NCBI GenBank assembly: GCA_001683985.1
Contig: MAEO01000055.1
Span: 1 to 32,194, forward strand
Reading direction: 5' to 3'
Origin: Smithella sp. M82
GTDB lineage: Bacteria > Desulfobacterota > Syntrophia > Syntrophales > Smithellaceae
DNA length: 32,194 bases
Shown here: in pieces, positions 6,130 through 31,516 of the stretch
Numbering within the stretch: the first letter of the stretch is position 1
Layout of the letters: each line of letters starts with the position of its first letter
Made by a program: the position numbers and the translations under genes
The notes under the pieces: model-generated
The model's database searches: none
What the model was told of the DNA's origin: nothing
What the model saw: the letters and a program-made list of their open reading frames with translations, nothing else

Positions 6130-6828
6130 GTGAAAAAAACAACATTAACTCTCTTATGTTTTATATTCCTATATCCGATTTGTCTTTTTGCGGCAGACAT
6201 ATCTGTAGCAGACAAATTTAGGAAAAGTTTCCCCAAAAACAATTTCGAAAGCATAACACCCACCGCTATTAGAGGTGTCTATGAAGTCTATAACGGCAAC
6301 CAGATTTACTATTACATGCCGAAAGACGATATAATCATCGGCGGACCGATGATTTCCAAAAACGGAGTAAATATAACCAGGGAAAGTTATTCCAAAAAAA
6401 CGGCACAAAAGATGGCCAAGTTGCAGACGGACAGCGCTCTTAAAATAGGCAATGGAAAAACTACTGTTGTGGAATTCATGGACCCCAATTGCTACCACTG
6501 CCGTCAGGCTTATAAATTCTTTTCTCAACGGCAGGACGTTACTCTGTATGTTTTCTTTTTCCCGCTATCTAAAGAATCGGCAAATAAAATCAAATATACT
6601 TTGTGTTCAAAAAATGTATTAAAGACTTATGACGATGTCATGAACGGAAAGTTCGATAATAACGCCGCTCTGCCTGTCTGCACGGATAAAAAAGTGGATG
6701 AAACCGTTAAAACGCACATGCAGCTTATTTCACAAATAGGAGCCAGAGGAACGCCTTTATTTTACATTAAAGGTCAGGTAGTTGACGGATTTGATCTTCC
6801 TGCGATTGAAAGACTTTTAAAAGACTAA
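6130..6828 (+). CDS. DsbC-like periplasmic thiol-disulphide protein
   Basis: A 232-residue exported protein. Residues 1-22 form a Sec signal peptide. A short N-terminal domain (about 25-95) resembles the DsbC dimerisation region, and the thioredoxin fold follows with the active site Cys121-Tyr-His-Cys124 and a cis-proline loop (ARGTPLFYI). Two more cysteines (LCSKN and PVCTDK) could form a structural pair, as in DsbC. It probably isomerises or reduces disulphides in exported proteins. The start is GTG at 6130 with a strong GGAGG site. It converges with metG. A TTGACA at 6054 has no matching -10. Confidence 0.82.
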   Translation: MKKTTLTLLCFIFLYPICLFAADISVADKFRKSFPKNNFESITPTAIRGVYEVYNGNQIYYYMPKDDIIIGGPMISKNGVNITRESYSKKTAQKMAKLQTDSALKIGNGKTTVVEFMDPNCYHCRQAYKFFSQRQDVTLYVFFFPLSKESANKIKYTLCSKNVLKTYDDVMNGKFDNNAALPVCTDKKVDETVKTHMQLISQIGARGTPLFYIKGQVVDGFDLPAIERLLKD

Positions 6829-6863
6829 AAAAGCGGTTGACAGGTTTTTATACAGCAACACTG

Positions 6864-8765
6864 TTATCTGATTTTTGCTCCCTTTTGGGGTTCGCGATCA
6901 AAAGTCAGAACGGTCAGTCCGTTATCTATATCGGTAGCTAAAAGCATTCCATGAGATTCTATTCCCATTAATTTTGCCGGTTTTAAATTGGCGACAATCA
7001 CTATTTTTTTGCCGATTAATTCCGTCGGAGTGTAATCCTTGGCAATGCCGGCAACAATTGTCCGTTCTTCACCGATATCGACTTTAAGTTTGATAAGTTT
7101 ATTGGACTTGGGAACAGCCTCCGCTGCCAGAATTTCTCCTGCACGTAAATCAATCTTGGCAAATTCCTCATAGTCTATATCCGGTTTCAAATTAATTGCA
7201 GGGACTTTTTCGACCGAAGTCTGGCTTGAATCTTTCTTCTGATTGACACGCGGAAATAAAGATTCGCCGCGGATCAGAGAACTACCTGCATTCAAAGCGT
7301 CTTCTTTATTGATACTTGCCATATCCAGTCTTTCCGATTGATCTGCTCCGATTTGCCGCAAAATTTTCTCTGCGGTTTGCGGCATGAAAGGCATAAGCAA
7401 AATAGCAATCGAACGCAAGGCCACCAGCAGATTATACATGATCGACGTCAGTTTTTCTTCATTGGCCGGATTTTTGCCTAAAGTCCATGGTTCATTTTCG
7501 ACAATGTATTTATTGGTGATATTGATAAAATCCCAAATAGCAATTAATGCTTTATGCAACGCCATATCTCTAAAGCCTGATTTAACTTCGGCAACGGCAT
7601 TTAAAGCGGCATCATACAGGACAGAATCTCTTTTCTTTCGATCGATTTGGGGTACTTTGCCGTCACAATATTTAACAGCCATGGTAATAGTACGGCTGAC
7701 CAGATTGCCCAAGTCATTGGCCAAATCGGAATTTAACCGCTGGACAAAAGCTTCTTCAGAAAAATTGGAATCCAACCCGAAAACCATATCTCTTAAAAGA
7801 AAATAACGAAACGCATCCAAACCGTATTTATCCTTTAAATCAAGAGGCCGGACAATATTGCCGAGGCTTTTGGACATTTTGCTTTGATCGGAATTCCAGT
7901 AACCATGCACATTCAAATGCTGGTAAGGTTCAATACCGGCTGATTTGAGCATTGTCGGCCAGTAAATGCCGTGCGGCTTCAAAATATCTTTGGCTATAAG
8001 ATGTTCGGCCACCGGCCAGAATGTTTTAAATTTTTCACCATCGGGATAATCCAAAGCGGTAAGGTAATTAATCAGAGCATCGAACCAGACATAAGTCACA
8101 TAGCCTTCATCAAACGGCAAAGTGATTCCCCATTCCAGACGGGATTTGGGACGCGATATGCAAAGGTCTTCCAGCGGATCACGCAAAAATGCCAGCGCTT
8201 CATTTCTATATCTTTCCGGCCGGATAAATTCAGGATTGTCCTTTATATGATCAATCAGCCATTTCTGATATTTGCTCATCTTGAAGAAATAATTTTTTTC
8301 CTCGATGTACCTCGGTTCTCTGCCGTGTTCGGGACACTTACCATCTGCTATTTCCTTTTCTGTCAGAAATCTTTCACAGCCAAAGCAGTAATAACCGCCG
8401 TAACTGCCGAAATAAATATCACCGGCATCATAAACCTTCTGAAGAATATAACGTACTGTTTCGATATGATCGGCATCGGTTGTCCTGATAAAATAATCAT
8501 TGGTGATTGCCAGTTCCGGACAAAGGGCGCGAAACTGCGCGCTGATTTTGTCCGCATATTCCTGAGGAGTGACTCCGGCTTTTTGTGCGGCTTCGGCAAT
8601 TTTATCGCCGTGTTCATCAGTGCCTGTGACAAAAAAAGTTTTTTCACCTATCATGCGATGATATCTGGCTAAAACATCGGCAACTATTGTAGTATAAGCA
8701 TGCCCCATATGCGGTGAAGCATTGACGTAATAAATCGGTGTTGTTATGTAATACGGTTTTGACAT
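6864..8765 (-). CDS. metG: Methionine-tRNA ligase
   Basis: Class I aminoacyl-tRNA synthetase that charges tRNA-Met, 633 residues. It has the HIGH box as HMGH (19-22), one zinc knuckle (CFGC...CPEH), the KMSKS loop (SKMSKSLGN), an anticodon-binding helical domain and a C-terminal EMAPII/Arc1p-type tRNA-binding domain (IDLRAGEILAAE...). I start at 8765 (MSKPYYITTP) because AGGA lies eleven bases upstream. An in-frame ATG at 8792 overlaps the ricT stop codon by ATGA and would add nine residues. It is the last gene of the tmk-holB-ricT-metG operon. Confidence 0.96.
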   Translation of the reverse strand: MSKPYYITTPIYYVNASPHMGHAYTTIVADVLARYHRMIGEKTFFVTGTDEHGDKIAEAAQKAGVTPQEYADKISAQFRALCPELAITNDYFIRTTDADHIETVRYILQKVYDAGDIYFGSYGGYYCFGCERFLTEKEIADGKCPEHGREPRYIEEKNYFFKMSKYQKWLIDHIKDNPEFIRPERYRNEALAFLRDPLEDLCISRPKSRLEWGITLPFDEGYVTYVWFDALINYLTALDYPDGEKFKTFWPVAEHLIAKDILKPHGIYWPTMLKSAGIEPYQHLNVHGYWNSDQSKMSKSLGNIVRPLDLKDKYGLDAFRYFLLRDMVFGLDSNFSEEAFVQRLNSDLANDLGNLVSRTITMAVKYCDGKVPQIDRKKRDSVLYDAALNAVAEVKSGFRDMALHKALIAIWDFINITNKYIVENEPWTLGKNPANEEKLTSIMYNLLVALRSIAILLMPFMPQTAEKILRQIGADQSERLDMASINKEDALNAGSSLIRGESLFPRVNQKKDSSQTSVEKVPAINLKPDIDYEEFAKIDLRAGEILAAEAVPKSNKLIKLKVDIGEERTIVAGIAKDYTPTELIGKKIVIVANLKPAKLMGIESHGMLLATDIDNGLTVLTFDREPQKGAKIR

Positions 8766-8788
8766 ATAAAAATAATTCCTATCGCTAA

Positions 8789-9538
8789 TCATTGAAAATT
8801 GGCGAACTCATCCATTTTTTCCAAATCTATAGTTTCCTTGTCCTCCGAAACTTCCCCACCATTAGCCTTGGCAGATTTGGGACATTTTCTTCGGTCGGCG
8901 TACGTCTCTTTTTCGAAAGCCAGGCAACACATCAACCGGCCGCATAATCCGGAAATCTTTTCCGGATTCAGCGACATACTCTGTTGTTTAGCCATTTTAA
9001 CGGTAACCCTCTCCATGTTTTGTAAAATTCCGGCACAACAAACCATCCGGCCGCAAATGGCAATGCCTTTTGTCATACGTGTTTCCTGACGGGCGCCGAT
9101 TTGCTTCAGTTCTATTCGCATCTTGAATTTTTGGACCAGGTCTTTGACCAGATCGCGAAAATCAACTCTGTTTTCAGCAGTAAAGTAAAAAATGATTTTA
9201 TTCCTTTCAAAAGAGCACTCCACATCTATCAATTTCATGGAAAGTTCCCGTTTTTGAATTTTTTCCAGACAGAACCTGCGGGCATTTTCTTCCAGTTTAT
9301 CATTTTCTTCTTTACGCTTTAAATCTTCAGCCGTTACTTTACGGATAACTTTCTTGAGATTCGCAGGCGTTTCCGATGCCGGACATCTTTTTACATCAGC
9401 GGCAACTACTCCCAGCGACAAACCATTATCAGTATCAACAATAACCTGATCTTTCTTGTGAAGAATAAGATCGTCGGCGTTAAAGTGATATATTCTGCCC
9501 TCTTCCTTAAATTTAATTCCAATAATATTTACAAGCAA
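8789..9538 (-). CDS. ricT: PSP1-domain protein RicT (YaaT-like)
   Basis: A 249-residue PSP1-domain protein. In Bacillus subtilis RicT (YaaT) works with RicA and RicF on RNase Y-dependent RNA maturation and carries an iron-sulphur cluster. Here the cysteine set is Cys162, Cys167, Cys168, Cys199, Cys204 and Cys205, in two CGRxxCC motifs, which is the family signature. A lysine- and glutamate-rich tail follows. The start is TTG at 9538 with an AAGG about eleven bases upstream. The position between holB and metG is the common bacterial arrangement. The role in this lineage is not established. Confidence 0.85.
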   Translation of the reverse strand: MLVNIIGIKFKEEGRIYHFNADDLILHKKDQVIVDTDNGLSLGVVAADVKRCPASETPANLKKVIRKVTAEDLKRKEENDKLEENARRFCLEKIQKRELSMKLIDVECSFERNKIIFYFTAENRVDFRDLVKDLVQKFKMRIELKQIGARQETRMTKGIAICGRMVCCAGILQNMERVTVKMAKQQSMSLNPEKISGLCGRLMCCLAFEKETYADRRKCPKSAKANGGEVSEDKETIDLEKMDEFANFQ

Positions 9539-12728: not shown

Positions 12729-14456
12729 TCAGAAACCATACCACAACAGAACGCAAAAACCAGCCATGATATAACCGGTTTCCAGAAGACCTTCCTTAAC
12801 GGCCCCGGAAAGGGCGGTCTGTTTATCACAAAACCGGAAACAAATCCATAAATATAATACACAGACGATCAGAAAAATACTCAGAGATGATGTCCAGCCT
12901 GCCAAATAAGAAAAAACAAGAAGAACTAATAATATCAATGAAATGATTTTTAAAATGGTTATTGTCCTGTCTCTGCCGAAAAACACAGGAATTGTTTCCT
13001 GACCTATTAATTTATCACTCTGGATTTCTAAAATATCCGACATCGCCGAACGGATAAAAACAACTCCAAAAGTAAAAACAAACGCAACGATTAAACCTGT
13101 ATTAAAAGAATAATTTCTGTCTAATACAGGTAAAATTGCCGCTACTATGCCCCAGGCAGCGGACATAAATATATTTTTCGAACCGGGCAAATCTTTTAAG
13201 CCGCGGAAGTGCCATTTACCGGGCAGAATTTTTATATTATAAATTATGCCGGCAAGAGAAATAACAAATAAAAAAGTGAAAGGCAAAACCGCGTTTTGCA
13301 ACGCCAAAGCAAGGGCAATCACTATAGAAATTAAAGCGGTAATAAAGTATATTTTACCATAGCGGTGGTAACTCTCTTCGCGGAAAGAACCGACAAGGCC
13401 CGCCGGTTTGCGGCTAAGCAGCCGATTCAAAACATGCATCGCGTAGACAAAGAAAGAAGCAATCGCAATAAAAGAAAATTTCACCGGCATTTTCTGCAGC
13501 AGCATGCAGGCCAGACAAAGGCACCCTGCACCCAGAGCCGAATAAACATCGGTTCTGATTGCTGATATCCAAAGACTGAGCAATTTGCCTATTTTTTTTA
13601 ACTTACGACTTTGACCCTCCATAATTTTATCCATCACCCGATCGATAATCCAGTTGGGTGTGGAAGCGCCTGCCGAAACCCCGATGCGATTGTAATGGCC
13701 TAAATTTATATTTTCCATATCAGACGGAGTTTCGATATGAAAAGTTGCCGATTGTTTTCTTTGCGCAAGATCAGCCAGCCTTCTGGTATTGGCGCTGTTT
13801 TTCCCGCCGACGATGAACATCGCATCCATTTCGCCGGCCATTGCCATGACTTCCGCCTGTCTTTGTTTCGTGGAAGAACAAATAGTGTTAAAGACAACCG
13901 CCTGCGGACAAAGCTCTTTAATCTTTTCCACAATTTTACTGTAATTGTCAAAGTCCTGCGTTGTTTGAGCGACAACGCAAACTTTATCCGTGCAGAGCAA
14001 TCTATCTACATCATCCAAAGCAGATATAATAACGCCGTGGCCACCGGCGTATCCCAACAGGCCATCGACTTCCGGATGTTCCTTATCGCCCACGATCACA
14101 ACCATGTAATCAAGAGCGGCGTGTTTTTTAATGATGGATTGCACGTAACCTACCTTGGGACAGGTAGCGTCAATAATTTTGATACCGTTTCCTTTGATTT
14201 TTTTTCTTTCAGCCGGAGCAATGCCGTGGGCACGAATAATCAGGATGGCATTTTCTTTGTCCTTTATTTCTTCTATATTTGCAATGGGTTTAACACCACG
14301 GCTTTTGAGCAGTTCAATTGTTTGAGGGTTATGAATCAACGGACCATAAGTATAAATCTGCCGGCGTGTTTCATGCTGCGCGATATCCACTACAATATCC
14401 ACAGCTCTTCGCACACCCATGCAAAAACCGGCTGTTCTGGCAAGCTTAATCTCCAT
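12729..14456 (-). CDS. ispH: IspH fused to a UbiA-like prenyltransferase domain
   Basis: A 575-residue fusion. Residues 1-285 are IspH (LytB), which reduces HMBPP to IPP and DMAPP in the MEP isoprenoid pathway: iron-sulphur cysteines Cys12, Cys99 and Cys193, substrate histidines in PLIHN, RAHG and KEHPEV, and the VSAGASTPNWII motif. From about residue 300 the rest is strongly hydrophobic, with about seven to nine membrane helices. It carries a UbiA-like Asp box (MSDILEIQSDKLIGQETIPV), but the first Asp-rich motif is degenerate (HVLNRLLSR). So the C-terminus may be a divergent prenyltransferase. The reading frame is continuous. It overlaps tlyA by 11 bases, implying coupling. Confidence 0.88.
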   Translation of the reverse strand: MEIKLARTAGFCMGVRRAVDIVVDIAQHETRRQIYTYGPLIHNPQTIELLKSRGVKPIANIEEIKDKENAILIIRAHGIAPAERKKIKGNGIKIIDATCPKVGYVQSIIKKHAALDYMVVIVGDKEHPEVDGLLGYAGGHGVIISALDDVDRLLCTDKVCVVAQTTQDFDNYSKIVEKIKELCPQAVVFNTICSSTKQRQAEVMAMAGEMDAMFIVGGKNSANTRRLADLAQRKQSATFHIETPSDMENINLGHYNRIGVSAGASTPNWIIDRVMDKIMEGQSRKLKKIGKLLSLWISAIRTDVYSALGAGCLCLACMLLQKMPVKFSFIAIASFFVYAMHVLNRLLSRKPAGLVGSFREESYHRYGKIYFITALISIVIALALALQNAVLPFTFLFVISLAGIIYNIKILPGKWHFRGLKDLPGSKNIFMSAAWGIVAAILPVLDRNYSFNTGLIVAFVFTFGVVFIRSAMSDILEIQSDKLIGQETIPVFFGRDRTITILKIISLILLVLLVFSYLAGWTSSLSIFLIVCVLYLWICFRFCDKQTALSGAVKEGLLETGYIMAGFCVLLWYGF

Positions 14457-24024: not shown

Positions 24025-24066
24025 ATGGAACATTTTTTTAACAATAAAAACAGGAGAATCATATGA
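24025..24066 (+). CDS. Possible 13-residue leader peptide
   Basis: An ATG nine bases after AGGAG opens MEHFFNNKNRRII and stops at a TGA that overlaps the SDR start codon as ATGA (24063-24066). It could couple SDR translation, or be accidental. The SDR gene has its own CAGGAGA site within this frame. Confidence 0.25.
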   Translation: MEHFFNNKNRRII

Positions 24067-24830
24067 ACATACAAGACAGTATTGTCGTTGTAACCGGCGG
24101 CGCTTCGGGATTGGGGGAGGCTTGCGTTAGAAACCTGCTCGCCGGCGGCGCAAAAATTGCCATCTTCGATTTTGCCGCTGACCGAGGCGCAAAAATTGCC
24201 GCCGAGTTGGGCAAAAATGTTATTTTTGCCAAAACGGATGTAACCGATGATACGGCTGTTCAGGAAGCCATCAACAAAACCATGGAATCTTTCGGCGCAA
24301 TTAACATCGCCATCAACTGCGCCGGTGGCGCCATACCCATGAAAGTATTATCCAAGAAAGGTCCGATGCCATTGGATGTTTTTAACAAAACGATCCAGCT
24401 AAATCTTGTCGGCACATTTAATGTTATCAGGCTGGTTGTCGAACAGATGGTTAAAAACAATCCTGGTGCGGATGGAGAGAAAGGCGTTATAATCAATACT
24501 TCTTCTGTCGCTGCCTTTGACGGTCAAATCGGTCAGGCTGCATACAGCGCTTCCAAAGGCGGTATTGTATCTATGACTCTGCCGATTGCCAGAGAATGCG
24601 CGGAGTATGGAATCAGAGTAATGACTATCGCTCCCGGACTTTTCGATACCCCGCTGCTTCAAGGCCTGCCGGAAGCAGCACGTGAGTCTCTGGGAAAAAT
24701 GATACCTTTTCCCCAGAGATTGGGAAAACCGGATGAGTTCGCATTTCTAGTCAGACATATTATAGAAAATCGCATGTTGAACGGTGAAGTGATACGGCTT
24801 GATGGAGCCATTCGAATGGCTGCAAAGTAA
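24063..24830 (+). CDS. SDR-family 3-hydroxyacyl-CoA dehydrogenase (type II-like)
   Basis: A 255-residue short-chain dehydrogenase. NAD-binding motif TGGASGLGE (11-19), Asp at the end of beta-2 (IFDFAAD, indicating NAD over NADP), NCAGG motif, catalytic Ser in NTSSVAAFDG, and YSASKGG for the Tyr and Lys. The overall sequence resembles human HSD17B10-type 3-hydroxyacyl-CoA dehydrogenases, including the insert around AIPMKVLSKKGPMPLDVFNK. It likely oxidises a (branched) 3-hydroxyacyl-CoA in beta-oxidation. It is the first gene of the cluster, 15 bases before the hydratase. Confidence 0.9.
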   Translation: MNIQDSIVVVTGGASGLGEACVRNLLAGGAKIAIFDFAADRGAKIAAELGKNVIFAKTDVTDDTAVQEAINKTMESFGAINIAINCAGGAIPMKVLSKKGPMPLDVFNKTIQLNLVGTFNVIRLVVEQMVKNNPGADGEKGVIINTSSVAAFDGQIGQAAYSASKGGIVSMTLPIARECAEYGIRVMTIAPGLFDTPLLQGLPEAARESLGKMIPFPQRLGKPDEFAFLVRHIIENRMLNGEVIRLDGAIRMAAK

Positions 24831-24845
24831 CTTGGATGAGGAAAT

Positions 24846-25626
24846 ATGGATTACACAACAATTCTTTACGAAAAGAGTGAAGGCATAGGCACAATCACGC
24901 TCAACAGGCCCAAGAGCATGAATGCCTTGAACAGTATTGTCCTGGGAGAGCTCAATCACGTCTTCAATGAAATAGCCAGGGATGCCGAGGTGAGGGTTGT
25001 GATAATCACGGGGGGGCGATAATTTCTTCGCTGCCGGTGCGGACATCAATGAACTAGCCGACCTTGCCACTCCCGCCGAGGCCCACGACTGGTTAGCGCC
25101 AGACAATGTTTTCCGCAGACTGGAAGACTTCGATAAGCCGGTCATTGCCCTGGTTTGCGGGCTTGCCCTGGGCGGAGGCTGCGAATTAGCCATGGCCTGC
25201 GACCTGAGGATAGCCGCGGAAAACGCCCAGTTCGGCCAGCCTGAAATCAAGATCGGCGTTATTCCCGGCGGCGGAGGGACGCAGAGACTGCCCCGCCTGA
25301 TCGGCGTCACCAAAGCCAAAGAACTCTTGTTTACCGGCGACAACATAGATGCAAACGAGGCATACAGGCTGGGTCTGGTCAATAAAGTGGTTCCACTCGA
25401 ATCGGCGATGGATGAAGCCCGGAAGGTGGCCTTGAAGATTGTCCGCCAGCCGGCAATGGCCCTTCGTGCAACCAAAATGGCGATCAACGGCGGTATGAAC
25501 ATGGACATCAAATATGCTTTGGCGTATGAAGCTCGTTGCTTCGAGAATCTTTTTTCCACGGAAGACCAGAAGGAAGGGACAAAAGCCTTTTTGGAAAAAC
25601 GGAAACCTGTATTTAAAAACAGATAA
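24846..25626 (+). pseudogene. Enoyl-CoA hydratase, frameshifted
   Basis: An enoyl-CoA hydratase/isomerase of 259 residues if one base is removed. Translation from ATG 24846 (MDYTTILYEKSEGIGTITLN) ends at a TAA after VVIITGGR, because the G run at 25010-25016 has seven Gs where six would continue into DNFFAAGADINEL. After the shift the frame runs to 25626 with the oxyanion-hole motifs ALGGGCELAMACDL and the Glu in GQPEIKIGVIPGGGGTQRLPRL. So the protein would be complete but for one G. It may be a sequencing error, a true mutation or a slippage switch. G+C is higher than in the SDR gene upstream. Confidence 0.88.
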
Positions 25627-25661
25627 TCGGATGCGGTTTTGAACTAGAGGAGGTAATCGAC

Positions 25662-27098
25662 ATGGTTGGAATTACGTCTTATGGAGCCTATATACCCCGC
25701 TACAGGATCGATCGGAAAACGATCTTTACGGCGATGGGGTGGTTTAACGCTGCCACGGCGGGCGTTGCGCGGGGAGAGAAAGCCGTAGCGAACTACGATG
25801 AGGACAGCATTACGATGGGTGTGGCCGCCACGGCGGATTGTTTGGGCCGCCTGCCCCGTGAAAAGATCGGCGGGTTTTATTTCTGCTCGACAACCTTTCC
25901 TTATGTGATCAGACAAAATGCGGCCATCTGTGCTGCGGCCCTTGCCTTTAATCCCGATACAAGGACGGCGGATTTCAGCACATCCTTCCGGTCCGGAACC
26001 ACGGCGCTCATTTCCGCCTGCGAGACGGTCCAGTCCGGAGGGGCAAAGAATTTTGTCGTTACCGCCGCCGATTGTCGGGTAGGGAAGCCGGGGAGCAGCA
26101 CCGAGCATACCTTTGGGGACGGCGCTGCATCGCTTATGATCGGCAGCGAGGATGTAATCGCCGAATTCAAGGGGAGCTACTCCATTTCCAGAGATTTTCC
26201 TGATTACAGGCAGATACAGGGGGAAAAGTTCCTGCATGTCTGGGAGGAAAGATGGATCAGGGATGAAGGCTACAACAAAATTATTCCTGAAGCGGCAGCG
26301 GGACTCACGGCAAAATTCGGTTTGAAGATCGGAGATTTTGCGAAGATTGTCATAGCCTGTCCCGTTGCAGGTCTGGAAAAGTTCTTAGGCGCTGCCCGCG
26401 AGCAGATTCAGGATAACATGGTGCGCAGCGTCGGCGATACCGGAGCGGCTATGCCGTTGATGATGCTGGTTGCAGCGCTTGAGGATGCAAAACCGAAAGA
26501 CAAGATACTTGTTCTAGGCTACGGCAGCGGGAGCGACGCCCTCTATTTTGAGGTGACGGAGCATATAAAGAAGCCCAGAGAGGCAATAGGAGTAAAGGGA
26601 CATCTCCAATTAAAGACGGAACTGACCAATTATAACCGGTATCTCGTCTATCGTGATTTGCTTCCCGTTGACGTGGGGATACGCGGAGAGGAAACCGCCA
26701 TGGAACGAATGTCTCTCGTCTATCGGGAAGGGGAGACGATGGCCGCCCTGCGCGGTTCGCGCTGTAAGGTATGCGGCACTCCGCAGTATCCGAGACGACG
26801 GGTCTGCATCAATCCCGAATGCGGGGCCATTGATCAGATGGAAGACTACTATTTTTATGACAAGATCGGCCGTATCAACTCGTATACCGGCGACAATCTG
26901 GCCTTCAGTTATGATCCCCCGGCGATGTATGGTTTAATCGACTTTGAGGAGGGCGGAAGGCTCTACCTCAACATTACCGACACCGAACTTGGTTCGCTCA
27001 AGGTGGGTTTGCCGGTAAAGATGACCTTCCGCCGCAAGAATGCCAGTCAGCGGCGGGGGATATACTCTTACTTCTGGAAGGCGATGCCGTTGCAGTAA
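25662..27098 (+). CDS. HMG-CoA synthase-like protein fused to DUF35 zinc-ribbon/OB domain
   Basis: A 478-residue fusion. Residues 1-300 have the thiolase-fold layout of HMG-CoA synthase: VGITSYGAYIPRYRI, GVAATADCL, DFSTSFRSGTTAL and FGDGAASLMI. By eye alignment with archaeal HMG-CoA synthases the catalytic Cys is Phe109 (codon 25986-25988), the Glu is Thr77 (STTFPY) and the His is Cys233 (ACPVAGLEKF). Residues 360-470 form a DUF35 domain: zinc ribbon Cys368, Cys371, Cys382, Cys387 then an OB fold. Thus it is probably non-catalytic for HMG-CoA synthesis. A strong GGAGG precedes the start. The thiolase gene follows 40 bases later. In archaea a thiolase, an HMG-CoA synthase and a DUF35 protein form a complex. 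Confidence 0.85.
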   Translation: MVGITSYGAYIPRYRIDRKTIFTAMGWFNAATAGVARGEKAVANYDEDSITMGVAATADCLGRLPREKIGGFYFCSTTFPYVIRQNAAICAAALAFNPDTRTADFSTSFRSGTTALISACETVQSGGAKNFVVTAADCRVGKPGSSTEHTFGDGAASLMIGSEDVIAEFKGSYSISRDFPDYRQIQGEKFLHVWEERWIRDEGYNKIIPEAAAGLTAKFGLKIGDFAKIVIACPVAGLEKFLGAAREQIQDNMVRSVGDTGAAMPLMMLVAALEDAKPKDKILVLGYGSGSDALYFEVTEHIKKPREAIGVKGHLQLKTELTNYNRYLVYRDLLPVDVGIRGEETAMERMSLVYREGETMAALRGSRCKVCGTPQYPRRRVCINPECGAIDQMEDYYFYDKIGRINSYTGDNLAFSYDPPAMYGLIDFEEGGRLYLNITDTELGSLKVGLPVKMTFRRKNASQRRGIYSYFWKAMPLQ

Positions 27099-27138
27099 AT
27101 GACAAAAGAGGTTGAACAATTAGAGGAGGAGAAATAAG

Positions 27139-28351
27139 ATGGCAGCCGGAATCAAGAATAAAGTTGCGATTATTGGAATGGGATGCACCAAATTTGGCGA
27201 GCTTTGGGATAAAAGCGAGCAGGATCTGATGGTTGATGCATATAAGGAAGCCCTTGCTGATGCCGGGGTGGAAACGAAGGACATCGACGCGGCCTGGTTT
27301 GGCAGTTGTTTCGAAGAGGTCAACGTCGGTAAAGGCGGAATAGCGCTCGCACGGGCGCTCAATCTGCCCAATATAGCGGTTACGAGGGTGGAAAATTTCT
27401 GTACATCCGGAACGGAGGCGATCAGGGGGTGCGTGTTATGCCGTGGCATCCGGGGCCTGCGATATAGCGCTTGCGCTTGGCGCCGAGAAACTCAAAGATA
27501 CAGGCTATGGAGGTCTGCCGGATTTCAGCACGGCAATGGGAACGGAGAACATGTTTTACCTGCCGAACCTTACCGCCCCGGGGATGTTTGGAATGGTCGC
27601 AACCGCGTATTTCTCCAAATATGGTTTAAGCCGTGAGGAAGGCAAGAGGGCGCTTGCCAGAATATCTTACAAGAGTCATAAGAACGGCGTATTGAACCCG
27701 AGGGCGCACCTCCGCAGAGAGGTCAGTATCGATGACATGATGGCCGCGCCGATCGTCGCGGAGCCGCTGGGCTTATACGACTGTTGCGGCGTAAGTGACG
27801 GAGCCGCCGCTGCGATTGTCGTCTGGGCCGAGGATGCGAAGAATTTCAGGCATGATCCGATTTACGTCAAGGCGCTGCAATTATCGATAACGCCCGGAAC
27901 AGGCATTGAACACCAGAGCTGGAACGGCATTCATCTGGAATCGACCCGCCACGCCGGAGACGCAGCCTTCAAAGAAGCCGGGATAAAAAACCCGCGGGAA
28001 GAGATAAACCTGATGGAGTTGCATGACTGCTTCTCCATCAATGAGCTTATTACCTATGAAACCCTCCATATATCGCCTATGGGAAAAGCCAGGGAAGATA
28101 TTGAAAGCGGATTTTACGACCTCGACGGCAAGATACCCTGCCAGAGCGACGGTGGACTGAAATGTTTCGGGCATCCGATCGGGGCTTCCGGGATAAGAAT
28201 GATTTACGAAATCTATAAGCAATTGCAGGGAAAGGCGGAGCCGCGGGAAAGACAGCTAAAGACAAATCCCCGGCTCGGCCTCACGCATAATCTGGGCGGC
28301 CTCTGCGGCAGCACCGTCGTCAGCGTGGCCATTTTTGGCAGCGAGTTGTAG
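27139..28351 (+). pseudogene. Thiolase (acetyl-CoA acyltransferase, SCP-x/BbsB type), frameshifted
   Basis: A thiolase of 403 residues once a single base is removed. Frame one runs MAAGIKNKVAIIGMG... to NFCTSGTEAIRG, then a G run at 27425-27429 (five Gs where four fit) shifts it; the second frame continues ACYAVASGACDIALALGAEKLK. Catalytic residues look intact: the nucleophilic Cys in FCTSGTEA, His in LHDCFSINELI, KCFGHPIGASG, and the Cys in GGLCGSTVVS. It would cleave a 3-oxoacyl-CoA with CoA. It likely pairs with the DUF35 fusion upstream. RBS GAGGAGG. The frameshift may be a mutation or a sequence error. Confidence 0.87.
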
Positions 28352-28423
28352 CCATATTCATAAAAATATGAGTGATCTCGACTCCATTTTGGATAAATGT
28401 ACTTTTCCTATGAGGGGGGAAAC

Positions 28424-28990
28424 ATGGATTTCCGCTTAACGGAAGAGCAGAGCATGATCAGGGATACGACCCATAAATTTGTGGATGAGGTTGTCGAACC
28501 ACAGGCTGAAGAGCTGGAAAGATCCGGGAAATATCCCTACGACATTATAAATCGGATGGCCGATCTGGGGATGATGGGCATTCCGTTTCCGGTGGAATAC
28601 GGGGGAAGCGGCGGCGATTGGGTGGGGATGCATATTTGCATTGAAGAGTTGTCCCGCGGCGACGCCACGCTGGGGGCTTTATTGGATGTGACAACCAGTG
28701 TTGTGGCGCAGGAGCTTTATGAATTCGGCACGGAAGAGCAAAAGCAAAAATGGCTTGTCCCGATGGCTCAAGGCAAAGAGATCGGGGCCTTCGGTCTTAC
28801 CGAACCCGGCGCCGGCTCTGACGCCGGCGCGACAAAAACCACGGCAGTTCCCGATGGGGATGAATGGATTATTAACGGTACAAAGCAGTTCATTACCAAT
28901 ATTGGATTAGATAATGCGTCGCTTGTCATCATCACTGCCCGCACCAAGGCATCGGAGGCAGGCGCCAGAGATGAAATCAACACGTTCTAA
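28424..28990 (+). pseudogene. Acyl-CoA dehydrogenase, truncated
   Basis: The N-terminal half (188 residues of about 380) of an acyl-CoA dehydrogenase: helical domain then the FAD-binding beta domain with AFGLTEPGAGSDAGATKTTA and WIINGTKQFITNIG. It stops at DEINTF, where relatives continue into the rest of the beta domain and the C-terminal helices that hold the catalytic base, so it cannot be active. The stop is created by TAA in CTAA right before an IS-like end at 28991. Start ATG 28424 with GAGGGGGGA; an upstream ATG at 28397 is less likely. An intact paralogue follows at 29098. Confidence 0.88.
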
Positions 28991-29080
28991 GAGGCTGTTG
29001 CACAAACCCCTGTTTTGGGGATACCGTTTAACGTTTATCAGCAGAAGCATCGTCTTTTTGCTATCCCTTAAGCAAAACAA
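28991..29080. mobile_element. IS-like terminal remnant
   Basis: Starting right at the break of the truncated dehydrogenase, GAGGCTGTTGCACAAAC looks like the terminal inverted repeat of several transposon families, and CTAA before it fits a YTAR-type target site as used by IS5-family elements. A small hairpin CCCC-TGTTTT-GGGG follows. No transposase or second end is present; the right border is unclear. It is a remnant by inference only. Confidence 0.4.
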
Positions 29081-29097: not shown

Positions 29098-30243
29098 ATG
29101 CCGAGAAAACTGTTTACCCAAGAGCATCAAATATTTCGTGAAAGTTTCCGCAAATTTCTGGAAAAAGAAGTCACTCCTTTTCTCGATAAATGGGAACATG
29201 AAAAAATCGTACCCAAAGATGTCTGGATGAAGATGGGTGAGAACGGATTTCTCTGTCCCTGGCTGGAAGAAGAATACGGCGGATCAAATGCCGGTTACGA
29301 GTATTCCGTAGTGATCAATGAGGAGTTATCTTTTGTGGGCGCTACGGGTCTTCTGGCCGGTCTGCACAGCGACATTATCGTTCCTTATATCCACAGCTTC
29401 GGCAATGAAGAACAAAAGAAACGCTGGCTTCCGGGATGCGCATCGGGAAATATCATTACGGCAGTTGCCATGACAGAACCGGGAACCGGCTCGGACCTGG
29501 CAGCAATTCGCACAACTGCTGTAAAAGACGGTAACGATTATGTTATTAACGGACAAAAAACATTTATTTCCAACGGTATAAATTGTGATCTTGCAATAGT
29601 TGCCGTCAAAACAGATACCAAAGCAAATCCACCTTTCAGGGGCATCAGTCTTATCTGTGTGGAAGCCGGCACGCCGGGTTTTGAAAAGGGCCGCAAACTC
29701 GACAAAATGGGTTTTCACAGCCAAGACACAGCGGAATTGAATTTCATAGACTGCCGTGTTCCTGCTGCCAATCTTTTGGGTGAGGAAGGACAGGGATTTT
29801 CCTATCTGATGAAGAAACTTCAGGCTGAGAGACTTGTTACGTCGATCATGGCGCAATCCATGGCCGAAGCGATGCTGCAAATGACAATTAAATATTCACG
29901 TGAACGAACGGTTTTCGGAAAACCGATCAGTTCTTTCCAGCACAACACATTTAAAATAGTCGAAATGGCAACGGAAATAGAATTAGGCAAAGCATTTTTA
30001 GACAATCTCATAGGCGAATACATAGCCGGAGAAGATATTGTCATGAAGGTCTCCATGGCCAAAGCCTGGATACCGGAAATGGCCAATCGTGTAGCGTACC
30101 AATGCGTTCAGTTACACGGAGGCTACGGATATATGGAAGAATATCCTATTCGCCGGTTTGCCCGCGATGTAAGAGTAATTCCAATATTTGCGGGGACCAC
30201 AGAAGTAATGAAAGTCATTGTTGGAAAAATGATGGGGTTATAA
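29098..30243 (+). CDS. Acyl-CoA dehydrogenase (LCAD/IVD-like)
   Basis: An intact 381-residue flavoenzyme that dehydrogenates an acyl-CoA to a 2-enoyl-CoA. Motifs: AMTEPGTGSDLAAIRTTA, YVINGQKTFISNG, and RTVFGKPISSFQ, with CVQLHGGYGYMEEYPIRRFARD and IFAGTTEVMK at the end. The position of the medium-chain base (Glu of EGT) is Ala here (FAGT), while Glu244 in LQAERLVTS fits the base of isovaleryl- and long-chain-type enzymes. So a branched or long substrate is plausible. RBS AAGAAAGG. It lies just after the IS-like remnant and replaces the broken paralogue in function, at least in part. Confidence 0.93.
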   Translation: MPRKLFTQEHQIFRESFRKFLEKEVTPFLDKWEHEKIVPKDVWMKMGENGFLCPWLEEEYGGSNAGYEYSVVINEELSFVGATGLLAGLHSDIIVPYIHSFGNEEQKKRWLPGCASGNIITAVAMTEPGTGSDLAAIRTTAVKDGNDYVINGQKTFISNGINCDLAIVAVKTDTKANPPFRGISLICVEAGTPGFEKGRKLDKMGFHSQDTAELNFIDCRVPAANLLGEEGQGFSYLMKKLQAERLVTSIMAQSMAEAMLQMTIKYSRERTVFGKPISSFQHNTFKIVEMATEIELGKAFLDNLIGEYIAGEDIVMKVSMAKAWIPEMANRVAYQCVQLHGGYGYMEEYPIRRFARDVRVIPIFAGTTEVMKVIVGKMMGL

Positions 30244-30334
30244 TTCTAAATTTTTACCGCGAGGCTGGAATAGTGATGAAAAAGATTATGTTGATTCTTG
30301 AAAGTATCTCTCTAAAAAACGATAAGGAGTATTT

Positions 30335-31516
30335 ATGCCGGGGGCATTACAAGGGTTAAAGATTCTGGATTTCACAACACTATTGCCGGGACCTTATGCC
30401 ACGATGTGCCTCGCCGACATGGGTGCAGACGTTTTAAAAATCGTTTCCGGTTCCCGGTCCGATTTAGTAGATTCTCTGCCGCCTTTCATACCAAAAACAA
30501 AACTGTCGGCTGCAGCCGCGCAACTCGGACGCGGCAAACGCTGCATGGCTTTGAATCTCAAAGATCCGAGAGCTATCACCATTATCCATAAGTTAGTTGC
30601 TGATCACGATATTTTAATTGAACAGTTCCGGCCCGGTGTTATGGCAAAATTAAAGCTGGCCTATGAAGATCTTAAAAAAATCAACCCTGCCATTATTTAC
30701 TGCTCTATCACGGGTTACGGACAGACAGGTTCTCTGCGTAACCGCGCCGGTCATGACATCAATTACATCGCCCGTTCCGGCATTGCATCCTATTCGGGAA
30801 AACAAAAATCAGGCCCCAGCCTTATGGGTATGCAGATCGCTGACGTGGCCTCCGGTTCCAATAATGCTGTCATCGGCATCCTGGCAGCAGTCATTAATCG
30901 TCTCCATACCGGCGTCGGTCAGCATATCGATATTTCCATGACGGACGGCATGATCGCCTTCAACGCTATGGTTGGCGCGGGATTTCTTGTTGATGGATGT
31001 GAGCCGTTACGGGAGAAAGAATATCTGAACGGTGGCGCTCTCTATGATTACTATAAGACAAAGGATAATAAATATATCAGTTTTGGCGGACTGGAACCGC
31101 ATTTCTTTGCCAATTTCTGCAATGCCATCAACCGCCCGGATCTGATCCCCGGCGGCATTCTTCCCCGGAATATCAAAACGATTAAAAAGGAAATTTGCGA
31201 AATTTTCCTTTCAAAGACACAGGACGAATGGATTGAAATATTCAACCGGACTGACGCCTGCGTCGAGCCGGTCTTGACCCTTGCAGAGGCCTTCAGCGAC
31301 GCTTTAACAGTAGAGCGCAGGATGGTTGTAAAGGTGGCTCTGCCCGGCGGGGGCAGCGTCAGACAAATCGGAAATCCCGTCAAATTCTCCGAAACCCCTG
31401 TTGAGTACCGGCATGCCGGCGTTTCCGGCCCGGCACACACACGCGAGGTTCTGATTGAGCTGGGTTATACAAATAAGGAAATCGATGAGTTCAAAGAAAC
31501 AGGATTATTCAACTGA
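30335..31516 (+). CDS. Family III CoA transferase, alpha-methylacyl-CoA racemase-like
   Basis: A 393-residue CaiB/BaiF-fold protein. N-terminal GLKILDFTTLLPGPYATMCLADMGADVLKI is the CoA-binding segment. His140 (AGHDINYIARSG), Asp170 (QIADVASGS) and Glu254 (LEPHFF) match the catalytic set of alpha-methylacyl-CoA racemase, whose mycobacterial form uses His126, Asp156 and Glu241 with nearly the same spacing. So a 2-methylacyl-CoA racemase is more likely than a plain CoA transferase, though transferase activity cannot be excluded. RBS AAGGAG. It is next to last in the cluster, 91 bases after the dehydrogenase. Confidence 0.88.
   Translation: MPGALQGLKILDFTTLLPGPYATMCLADMGADVLKIVSGSRSDLVDSLPPFIPKTKLSAAAAQLGRGKRCMALNLKDPRAITIIHKLVADHDILIEQFRPGVMAKLKLAYEDLKKINPAIIYCSITGYGQTGSLRNRAGHDINYIARSGIASYSGKQKSGPSLMGMQIADVASGSNNAVIGILAAVINRLHTGVGQHIDISMTDGMIAFNAMVGAGFLVDGCEPLREKEYLNGGALYDYYKTKDNKYISFGGLEPHFFANFCNAINRPDLIPGGILPRNIKTIKKEICEIFLSKTQDEWIEIFNRTDACVEPVLTLAEAFSDALTVERRMVVKVALPGGGSVRQIGNPVKFSETPVEYRHAGVSGPAHTREVLIELGYTNKEIDEFKETGLFN

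Follow-up and report, generated by a model that had tools for sequence, protein, structure and literature searches.

The stretch of DNA analysed here (the window) is a 32,194-nucleotide contig of Smithella sp. M82. It encodes a protein in which a domain resembling HMG-CoA synthase is joined to a DUF35 module, with a thiolase gene directly downstream, and it raises the question of what such a protein does when its synthase active site is gone. A sequence-only reading of the window had offered two answers: a non-catalytic scaffold that binds CoA, or a new activity. Our analysis favours the former. Judging from sequence comparison and from analogy with known complexes, the fused protein is probably a dedicated non-catalytic partner subunit of the adjacent thiolase, in a beta-oxidation-like thiolysis. 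The features of the locus are collected in Table 1.

Table 1. Features of the fused gene and its surroundings, in positions of the window.
Feature	Coordinates	Strand	Evidence
SDR, probable 3-hydroxyacyl-CoA dehydrogenase, native flank	24063..24830	+	88% identity to G008, same place
GC-rich 4.2-kb block absent from two congeners	24824..29027	+	DNA comparison, GC3
Enoyl-CoA hydratase, frameshifted at G run near 25010-25016	24846..25626	+	ORFs, Pfam
Fused pseudo-HMG-CoA-synthase/DUF35 protein, 478 aa, frame intact	25662..27098	+	ORF, Pfam, NCBIfam, AlphaFold
HMG-CoA-synthase/KAS-III-like domain, residues 1-335, without catalytic Glu, Cys, His	25662..26666	+	NCBIfam, alignment, structure match
Codon of Thr77, catalytic Glu column	25890..25892	+	Thr 122/135, Glu 0/135
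Codon of Phe109, catalytic Cys column	25986..25988	+	Cys 0/135
Codon of Ala232, catalytic His column (Cys233 is the next codon)	26355..26357	+	His 0/135
DUF35 rubredoxin-like zinc ribbon, Cys368, 371, 382, 387	26748..26828	+	Pfam PF12172
DUF35 OB fold, ChsH2 C-terminal type	26868..27032	+	Pfam PF01796
SCP2-type thiolase (PRK06157 family), partner gene, frameshift near 27430-27442	27139..28351	+	ORFs, Pfam, NCBIfam
Acyl-CoA dehydrogenase, truncated, N-terminal half only, 197 aa	28397..28990	+	Pfam N domain and part of M domain
Acyl-CoA dehydrogenase, native flank, intact	29098..30243	+	Pfam; 95.5% to G008
Class III CoA-transferase, native flank	30335..31516	+	Pfam; 89% to G008

The fusion itself is as it had been described: one open reading frame holds both the synthase-fold domain and DUF35, and the four zinc cysteines had been numbered correctly. 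Both DUF35 elements exceeded their Pfam cut-offs, the zinc ribbon at residues 363–389 (26.8 bits against 23.2) and the OB fold at residues 403–457 (33.4 bits against 27.1). The N-terminal part gave weak matches to ACP synthase III in Pfam. In NCBIfam, residues 1–333 matched PRK04262 (223.3 bits, E 4e-66; cut-off 244) and TIGR00748 (169.5 bits; cut-off 353), and every HMG-CoA synthase model over the protein scored under its equivalog cut-off. By sequence, the nearest solved chains were PhlA (9skh, 5m3k) and the archaeal HMG-CoA synthase 6esq, and for the C-terminal part the DUF35 chain of 6esq. An AlphaFold model of the fused protein with 30 homologues (pLDDT 87.7, pTM 0.90) had as its top structural match the archaeal HMG-CoA synthase 6et9_I (Z 47.8, rmsd 1.5, 331 residues), PhlA being a further best match (Z about 46). 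The predicted model thus has the fold of an HMG-CoA synthase, in keeping with the claim that the thiolase-type fold is retained.

Catalytic columns were assigned by profile and MAFFT alignments to 6esq, PhlA, MucA and the HMG-CoA synthase of S. aureus. In the alignment to 6esq and the S. aureus enzyme, Thr77 and Phe109 stood at the Glu and Cys columns, where the sequence-only reading had put them by eye. Its third assignment was off by one: the His column is occupied by Ala232, and Cys233 lies one column on. The conclusion that the synthase lacks its catalytic triad holds despite this shift, and no alignment placed another Cys, Glu and His in the active site.

The loss is not peculiar to the window. 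Among 135 fused homologues the Glu column held Thr in 122 and Glu in none. The Cys column held Leu (64), Gln (27), Thr (13), Ile (10), Val (9), Met (5) and a few others, but never Cys; the His column held Pro (83), Tyr (18), Ala (12) and others, but never His. Conservation of a Thr/Phe/Cys pattern had been suggested as a check on the family. The Thr recurs in most members, and Phe109 is private to the window copy. Asp153 (130/135; Ala or Ser in the reference synthases) and Arg197 (131/135) are near-invariant marks of the family that differ from the synthases compared, and the four zinc cysteines are invariant in all 123 scored members of the Desulfobacterota set. A true HMG-CoA synthase was rejected because the triad is absent in 135/135 and because the protein also fails the equivalog cut-offs of TIGR00748 and PRK04262. 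With the triad absent, an archaeal channelling complex whose active synthase takes up the acetoacetyl intermediate does not apply here either.

The partner thiolase of the window carries the NxC, HDCF and GHP motifs, but its frame is broken: residues 1–99 are read in the frame of 27139 and the remainder in the frame of 27443–28351. The sequence-only reading hinted at this when it spoke of a repaired thiolase, though its reasoning does not mention the break. The C-terminal part by itself exceeds the PRK06157 cut-off (429 against 403 bits), and intact relatives score 593 and 672 bits. The gene had been called active-looking, with its Cys and His motifs intact; this is apt for the family, not for the window copy.

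Linkage was scored at 122 loci (120 genome stretches and 2 from a contig scan), four of which were cut by a contig end. At all 118 informative loci, from Desulfobacterota, a thiolase gene lies directly downstream of the fused gene, no more than about 350 bases away and in the same orientation; at two loci, upstream-extended thiolase ORFs overlap the fused gene. An intact pair is seen, for instance, at locus L036 of the relative G080, where both genes are on the − strand (fused gene 7983–9440, thiolase 6756–7976). Homologues without a linked thiolase, which had been named as a sign against the proposal, were not encountered among these loci. All 118 partner thiolases have the nucleophile Cys91. 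HDCF and GHP are found in every one of the 112 that have no gap at that place, six being gapped; the classical C-terminal Cys position is Pro in 104. Most, not all, thiolases of the partner type adjoin a fused gene. Three (L239, L241 and L244) have none in the flank available, and the partner thiolase might not always require the fused protein. Pairwise distances of the thiolase correlated with those of the DUF35 part at r 0.904 and with those of the HMGCS part at 0.781, and the HMGCS and DUF35 parts with each other at 0.838, all calculated without a control gene. That DUF35 tracks the thiolase best fits a role as the docking part, which is suggestive only, as the correlation partly reflects shared descent.

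The fused family was found in 55 of the 155 genomes of the class and in 110 of the 395 sampled genomes of the phylum. The pair is also adjacent on plasmids of Sphingomonas, Variovorax, Azoarcus, Novosphingobium, Niveispirillum, Rhodococcus and Streptomyces. In the haloarchaea Haloferax, Natronorubrum and Haladaptatus the order is reversed, thiolase then fused gene; L217, L220 and L221 are haloarchaeal plasmids with the reversed pair. A synthase-domain tree was built by maximum likelihood and drawn with a midpoint root; in it the S. aureus synthase and MucA sit on long branches. All fused proteins, archaeal included, formed one clade (100/99) of their own, next to PhlA grouped with MucA (99/96) and apart from two active synthases. 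The simplest reading of this tree, which has few outgroups, would be that the active site was lost first and that the fusion then arose once. A copy on a contig titled Marinilabiliaceae MAG, of Bacteroidota (L034), falls within a group of copies from the order to which the window belongs; the contig is perhaps mis-binned.

Many Desulfobacterota homologues are longer, of about 910 aa, and combine the HMGCS-like, DUF35, SDR and SCP2 domains in one chain, which is followed by the thiolase at L057:8001-10718, L132:5001-7700 and other loci. The SDR on this chain is the enzyme type expected one step before thiolysis. Genes for ACAD, ECH, SDR or CoA-transferase were present in the fetched flanks of 97 of the 122 loci. 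At two loci (L214:4103-10558 and L215:1611-10641) the pair stands beside ring-hydroxylating dioxygenase and AMP-ligase genes, an arrangement resembling the ibuprofen cluster ipfABDEF. IpfE of ibuprofen degraders, annotated as an OB-fold protein that acts with the thiolase IpfD, is a candidate for a characterised member of the fused family.

In the window, DNA similarity to the congeners G008 and G007 ends at 24823 and restarts at 29028/29035. Between these points lie the genes of the hydratase, the fused protein and the partner thiolase, together with one half of an acyl-CoA dehydrogenase gene, in a block whose GC3 is 0.60–0.65 against 0.37–0.53 in neighbouring genes. The two congeners have the same operon (NMO, TetR, SDR, ACAD, CoA-transferase), with a classical 407-aa thiolase between SDR and ACAD. 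Four congeners carry a version of this thiolase at 89–100%, and no close ortholog was found elsewhere in the window's genome (best match 43%). The fused gene was sought in 16 other genomes of the genus and found in none. The block looks like a horizontal swap of the classical thiolase for another kind. The module was seemingly gained as a block in this genome, where it may already be non-functional: since its thiolase is frameshifted, the pair may not work there.

It may be noted that a possible IS end (GAGGCTGTTGCACAAA) follows position 28990; as a repeat it was rejected, as it occurs once in the window's genome. The congeners have a lipoprotein-like gene of 305–306 aa between the acyl-CoA dehydrogenase and the CoA-transferase, of which the window (30102–30359, around 30311) has a start remnant only. 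G008 has an extra 390-aa thiolase between TetR and SDR (G008:C38:30196-31347, within L227) that the window lacks. On the − strand of the window, at 12729–14456, one ORF joins IspH (LytB, residues 3–278) to a UbiA-type prenyltransferase (371–547).

The role of scaffold proposed for the synthase-like domain is favoured because the triad is gone in every homologue while the fold and the zinc cysteines are kept, because a thiolase with invariant motifs is linked at every informative locus, and because PhlA offers a precedent. In the PhlACB complex only PhlC residues contact the substrate and take part in acyl transfer, yet PhlA and PhlB are required for a functional complex, and a continuous cavity joins all three. 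A part in thiolysis is suggested by the SDR and SCP2 domains that relatives carry on the same chain, by the genes of the 97 loci, and by the block standing in place of a classical thiolase. By this reasoning the DUF35 part would dock onto the thiolase. The pseudo-synthase part, the inactive remnant of an HMG-CoA synthase, would help to build a shared CoA/acyl cavity, much like PhlA and PhlB around PhlC, or the synthase and DUF35 around the archaeal thiolase. The chemistry would be left to the thiolase, which would cleave a 3-ketoacyl-CoA with CoA as the final step of a beta-oxidation-like spiral, the dehydrogenase, hydratase, SDR and CoA-transferase being encoded around the pair. In this scheme we infer that the two proteins form a physical complex, that the reaction runs towards thiolysis, and what its substrate is.

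Other functions for the pair have to be weighed against this. The fused protein would still be a scaffold if the pair, instead of performing thiolysis, worked like PhlACB as a C-acyltransferase or condensing enzyme whose substrate, phenolic or otherwise, carries no CoA. Its closest structural and sister-clade relatives, PhlA and MucA, are indeed acyltransferase subunits, and some copies adjoin ring-hydroxylating dioxygenase and ligase genes; however, the beta-oxidation-type surroundings of the Desulfobacterota copies (97/122 loci), the fusions to SDR and SCP2 domains and the position of the window block in the congeners' classical thiolase place make this unlikely. We consider it slightly less probable again that the pocket of the pseudo-synthase catalyses a new reaction or serves as a ligand sensor. 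The near-invariance of Asp153 and Arg197, residues that differ from those of the synthases compared, would suit such a role, as would Gln at the Cys column in 27 members, which recalls the KSQ decarboxylase domains. Against it, the Cys column varies over Leu, Gln, Thr, Ile, Val and Met in a way that suits the lining of a pocket and not conserved chemistry, and the His column varies too (Pro, Tyr, Ala). That the partner thiolase is a retro-aldolase, as in ChsH2-Ltp2 and Shy-Sal, is very improbable: the DUF35 plus thiolase-fold architecture is of the same type, but Sal relies on Tyr302 and Cys304 of a YDCY motif, whereas the partner thiolases keep Cys91, HDCF and GHP invariant. On the same counts (118/118 and 112/112), identity with the Ltp2/Sal aldolases was rejected.

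A different kind of alternative concerns the window's genome only and is compatible with a scaffold role for the family, namely that the block came from outside, has no function and is decaying. The two frameshifts and the truncated gene inside 4.2 kb point that way, as does the absence of the fused gene from the other genomes of the genus searched. Yet a draft assembly may contain false frameshifts, and one of the two here lies in a G run. The fused gene, moreover, is intact and well conserved; when its decay was sought as deviation from 53 highly conserved columns none was seen, the window copy deviating at 1 of them with a family median of 1. We regard decay as a real possibility, somewhat short of an even chance.

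Beyond the partner-subunit reading, a broader proposal may be outlined, which is rather unlikely to hold as a whole. The fused family would then represent two-part thiolases found across domains of life, in which a dead enzyme has become an obligate pocket-forming subunit. Its old Cys column would be a variable specificity position, its pseudo-active site (Asp153, Arg197) would be where a regulator or the acyl group binds, and some lineages would have taken the preceding dehydrogenase into the chain to allow channelling.

In its general form the idea is not new, since an earlier structural paper on DUF35 had already recorded fusions to thiolase-superfamily, SDR and SCP2 domains and had pointed out the inactive thiolase-superfamily member in phlABC. 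We found no literature on the fused family as such, a search mostly without subscription papers and hence weak evidence of novelty. What deserves attention is that in Desulfobacterota, Proteobacteria, Actinobacteria and haloarchaea alike a pseudoenzyme has been retained in fused form and linked to a single partner. As database names of the fused proteins span 'OB-fold domain-containing protein' to 'hydroxymethylglutaryl-CoA synthase', pathway reconstructions may wrongly assign HMG-CoA synthase to bacteria or miss a thiolase subunit. Comparing chains that have SDR-SCP2 with chains that lack it offers a way to test whether the dead subunit serves substrate channelling.

Several known systems share parts of this design. 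In the steroid aldolases ChsH2-Ltp2 and Shy-Sal (6ok1), DUF35 likewise shares a chain with another enzyme of the pathway and docks onto a partner of thiolase fold, but the fused enzyme is a hydratase instead of a pseudo-synthase and the active site is that of an aldolase. The benzoylsuccinyl-CoA thiolase BbsAB (7pxp) is a thiolase with a DUF35 subunit, encoded in a beta-oxidation-like operon of anaerobic toluene degradation; unlike the fused protein, it is not known to have a synthase-like domain. Identity with BbsAB was rejected on NCBIfam scores (NF053627, 15.7 against 250 bits; NF053628, 121 against 750 bits). The archaeal complex of thiolase, HMG-CoA synthase and DUF35 has the same part folds, and its synthase is the best structural match (31% identity), but there Cys, Glu and His are retained and DUF35 is a protein of its own, whereas the fused protein has lost all three residues. 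MucABC of Streptococcus macacae (9vbo, 9vbt), by structure title a multi-component acyltransferase, also has a synthase-like subunit that lacks the triad (its residues in the Glu, Cys and His columns are Cys, Glu and Gln), but MucA, on a long branch, groups with PhlA and not with the fused family.

The closest precedent for the fused protein is PhlA, the dead synthase subunit of the PhlACB acyltransferases PpATase and CsATase (5m3k, 9skh), which has the HMG-CoA-synthase fold without the catalytic Cys and Glu and is 33% identical to the fused protein in the synthase domain. The composition is the same, an inactive synthase-like part, DUF35 (PhlB) and a catalytic thiolase-fold partner with Cys and His (PhlC), the frame of the window thiolase being broken. 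Further hallmarks of the PhlACB type are its dodecameric assembly and an acyl transfer that does not depend on CoA. The differences are that PhlACB comprises three separate genes where the fused protein joins two accessory parts, and that it serves antibiotic biosynthesis on phenolic substrates while the fused family occurs in degradation-type clusters. Hence, the fused pair extends the three-part kind known from PhlA and the archaea to a degradation-type setting, with the two accessory parts fused.
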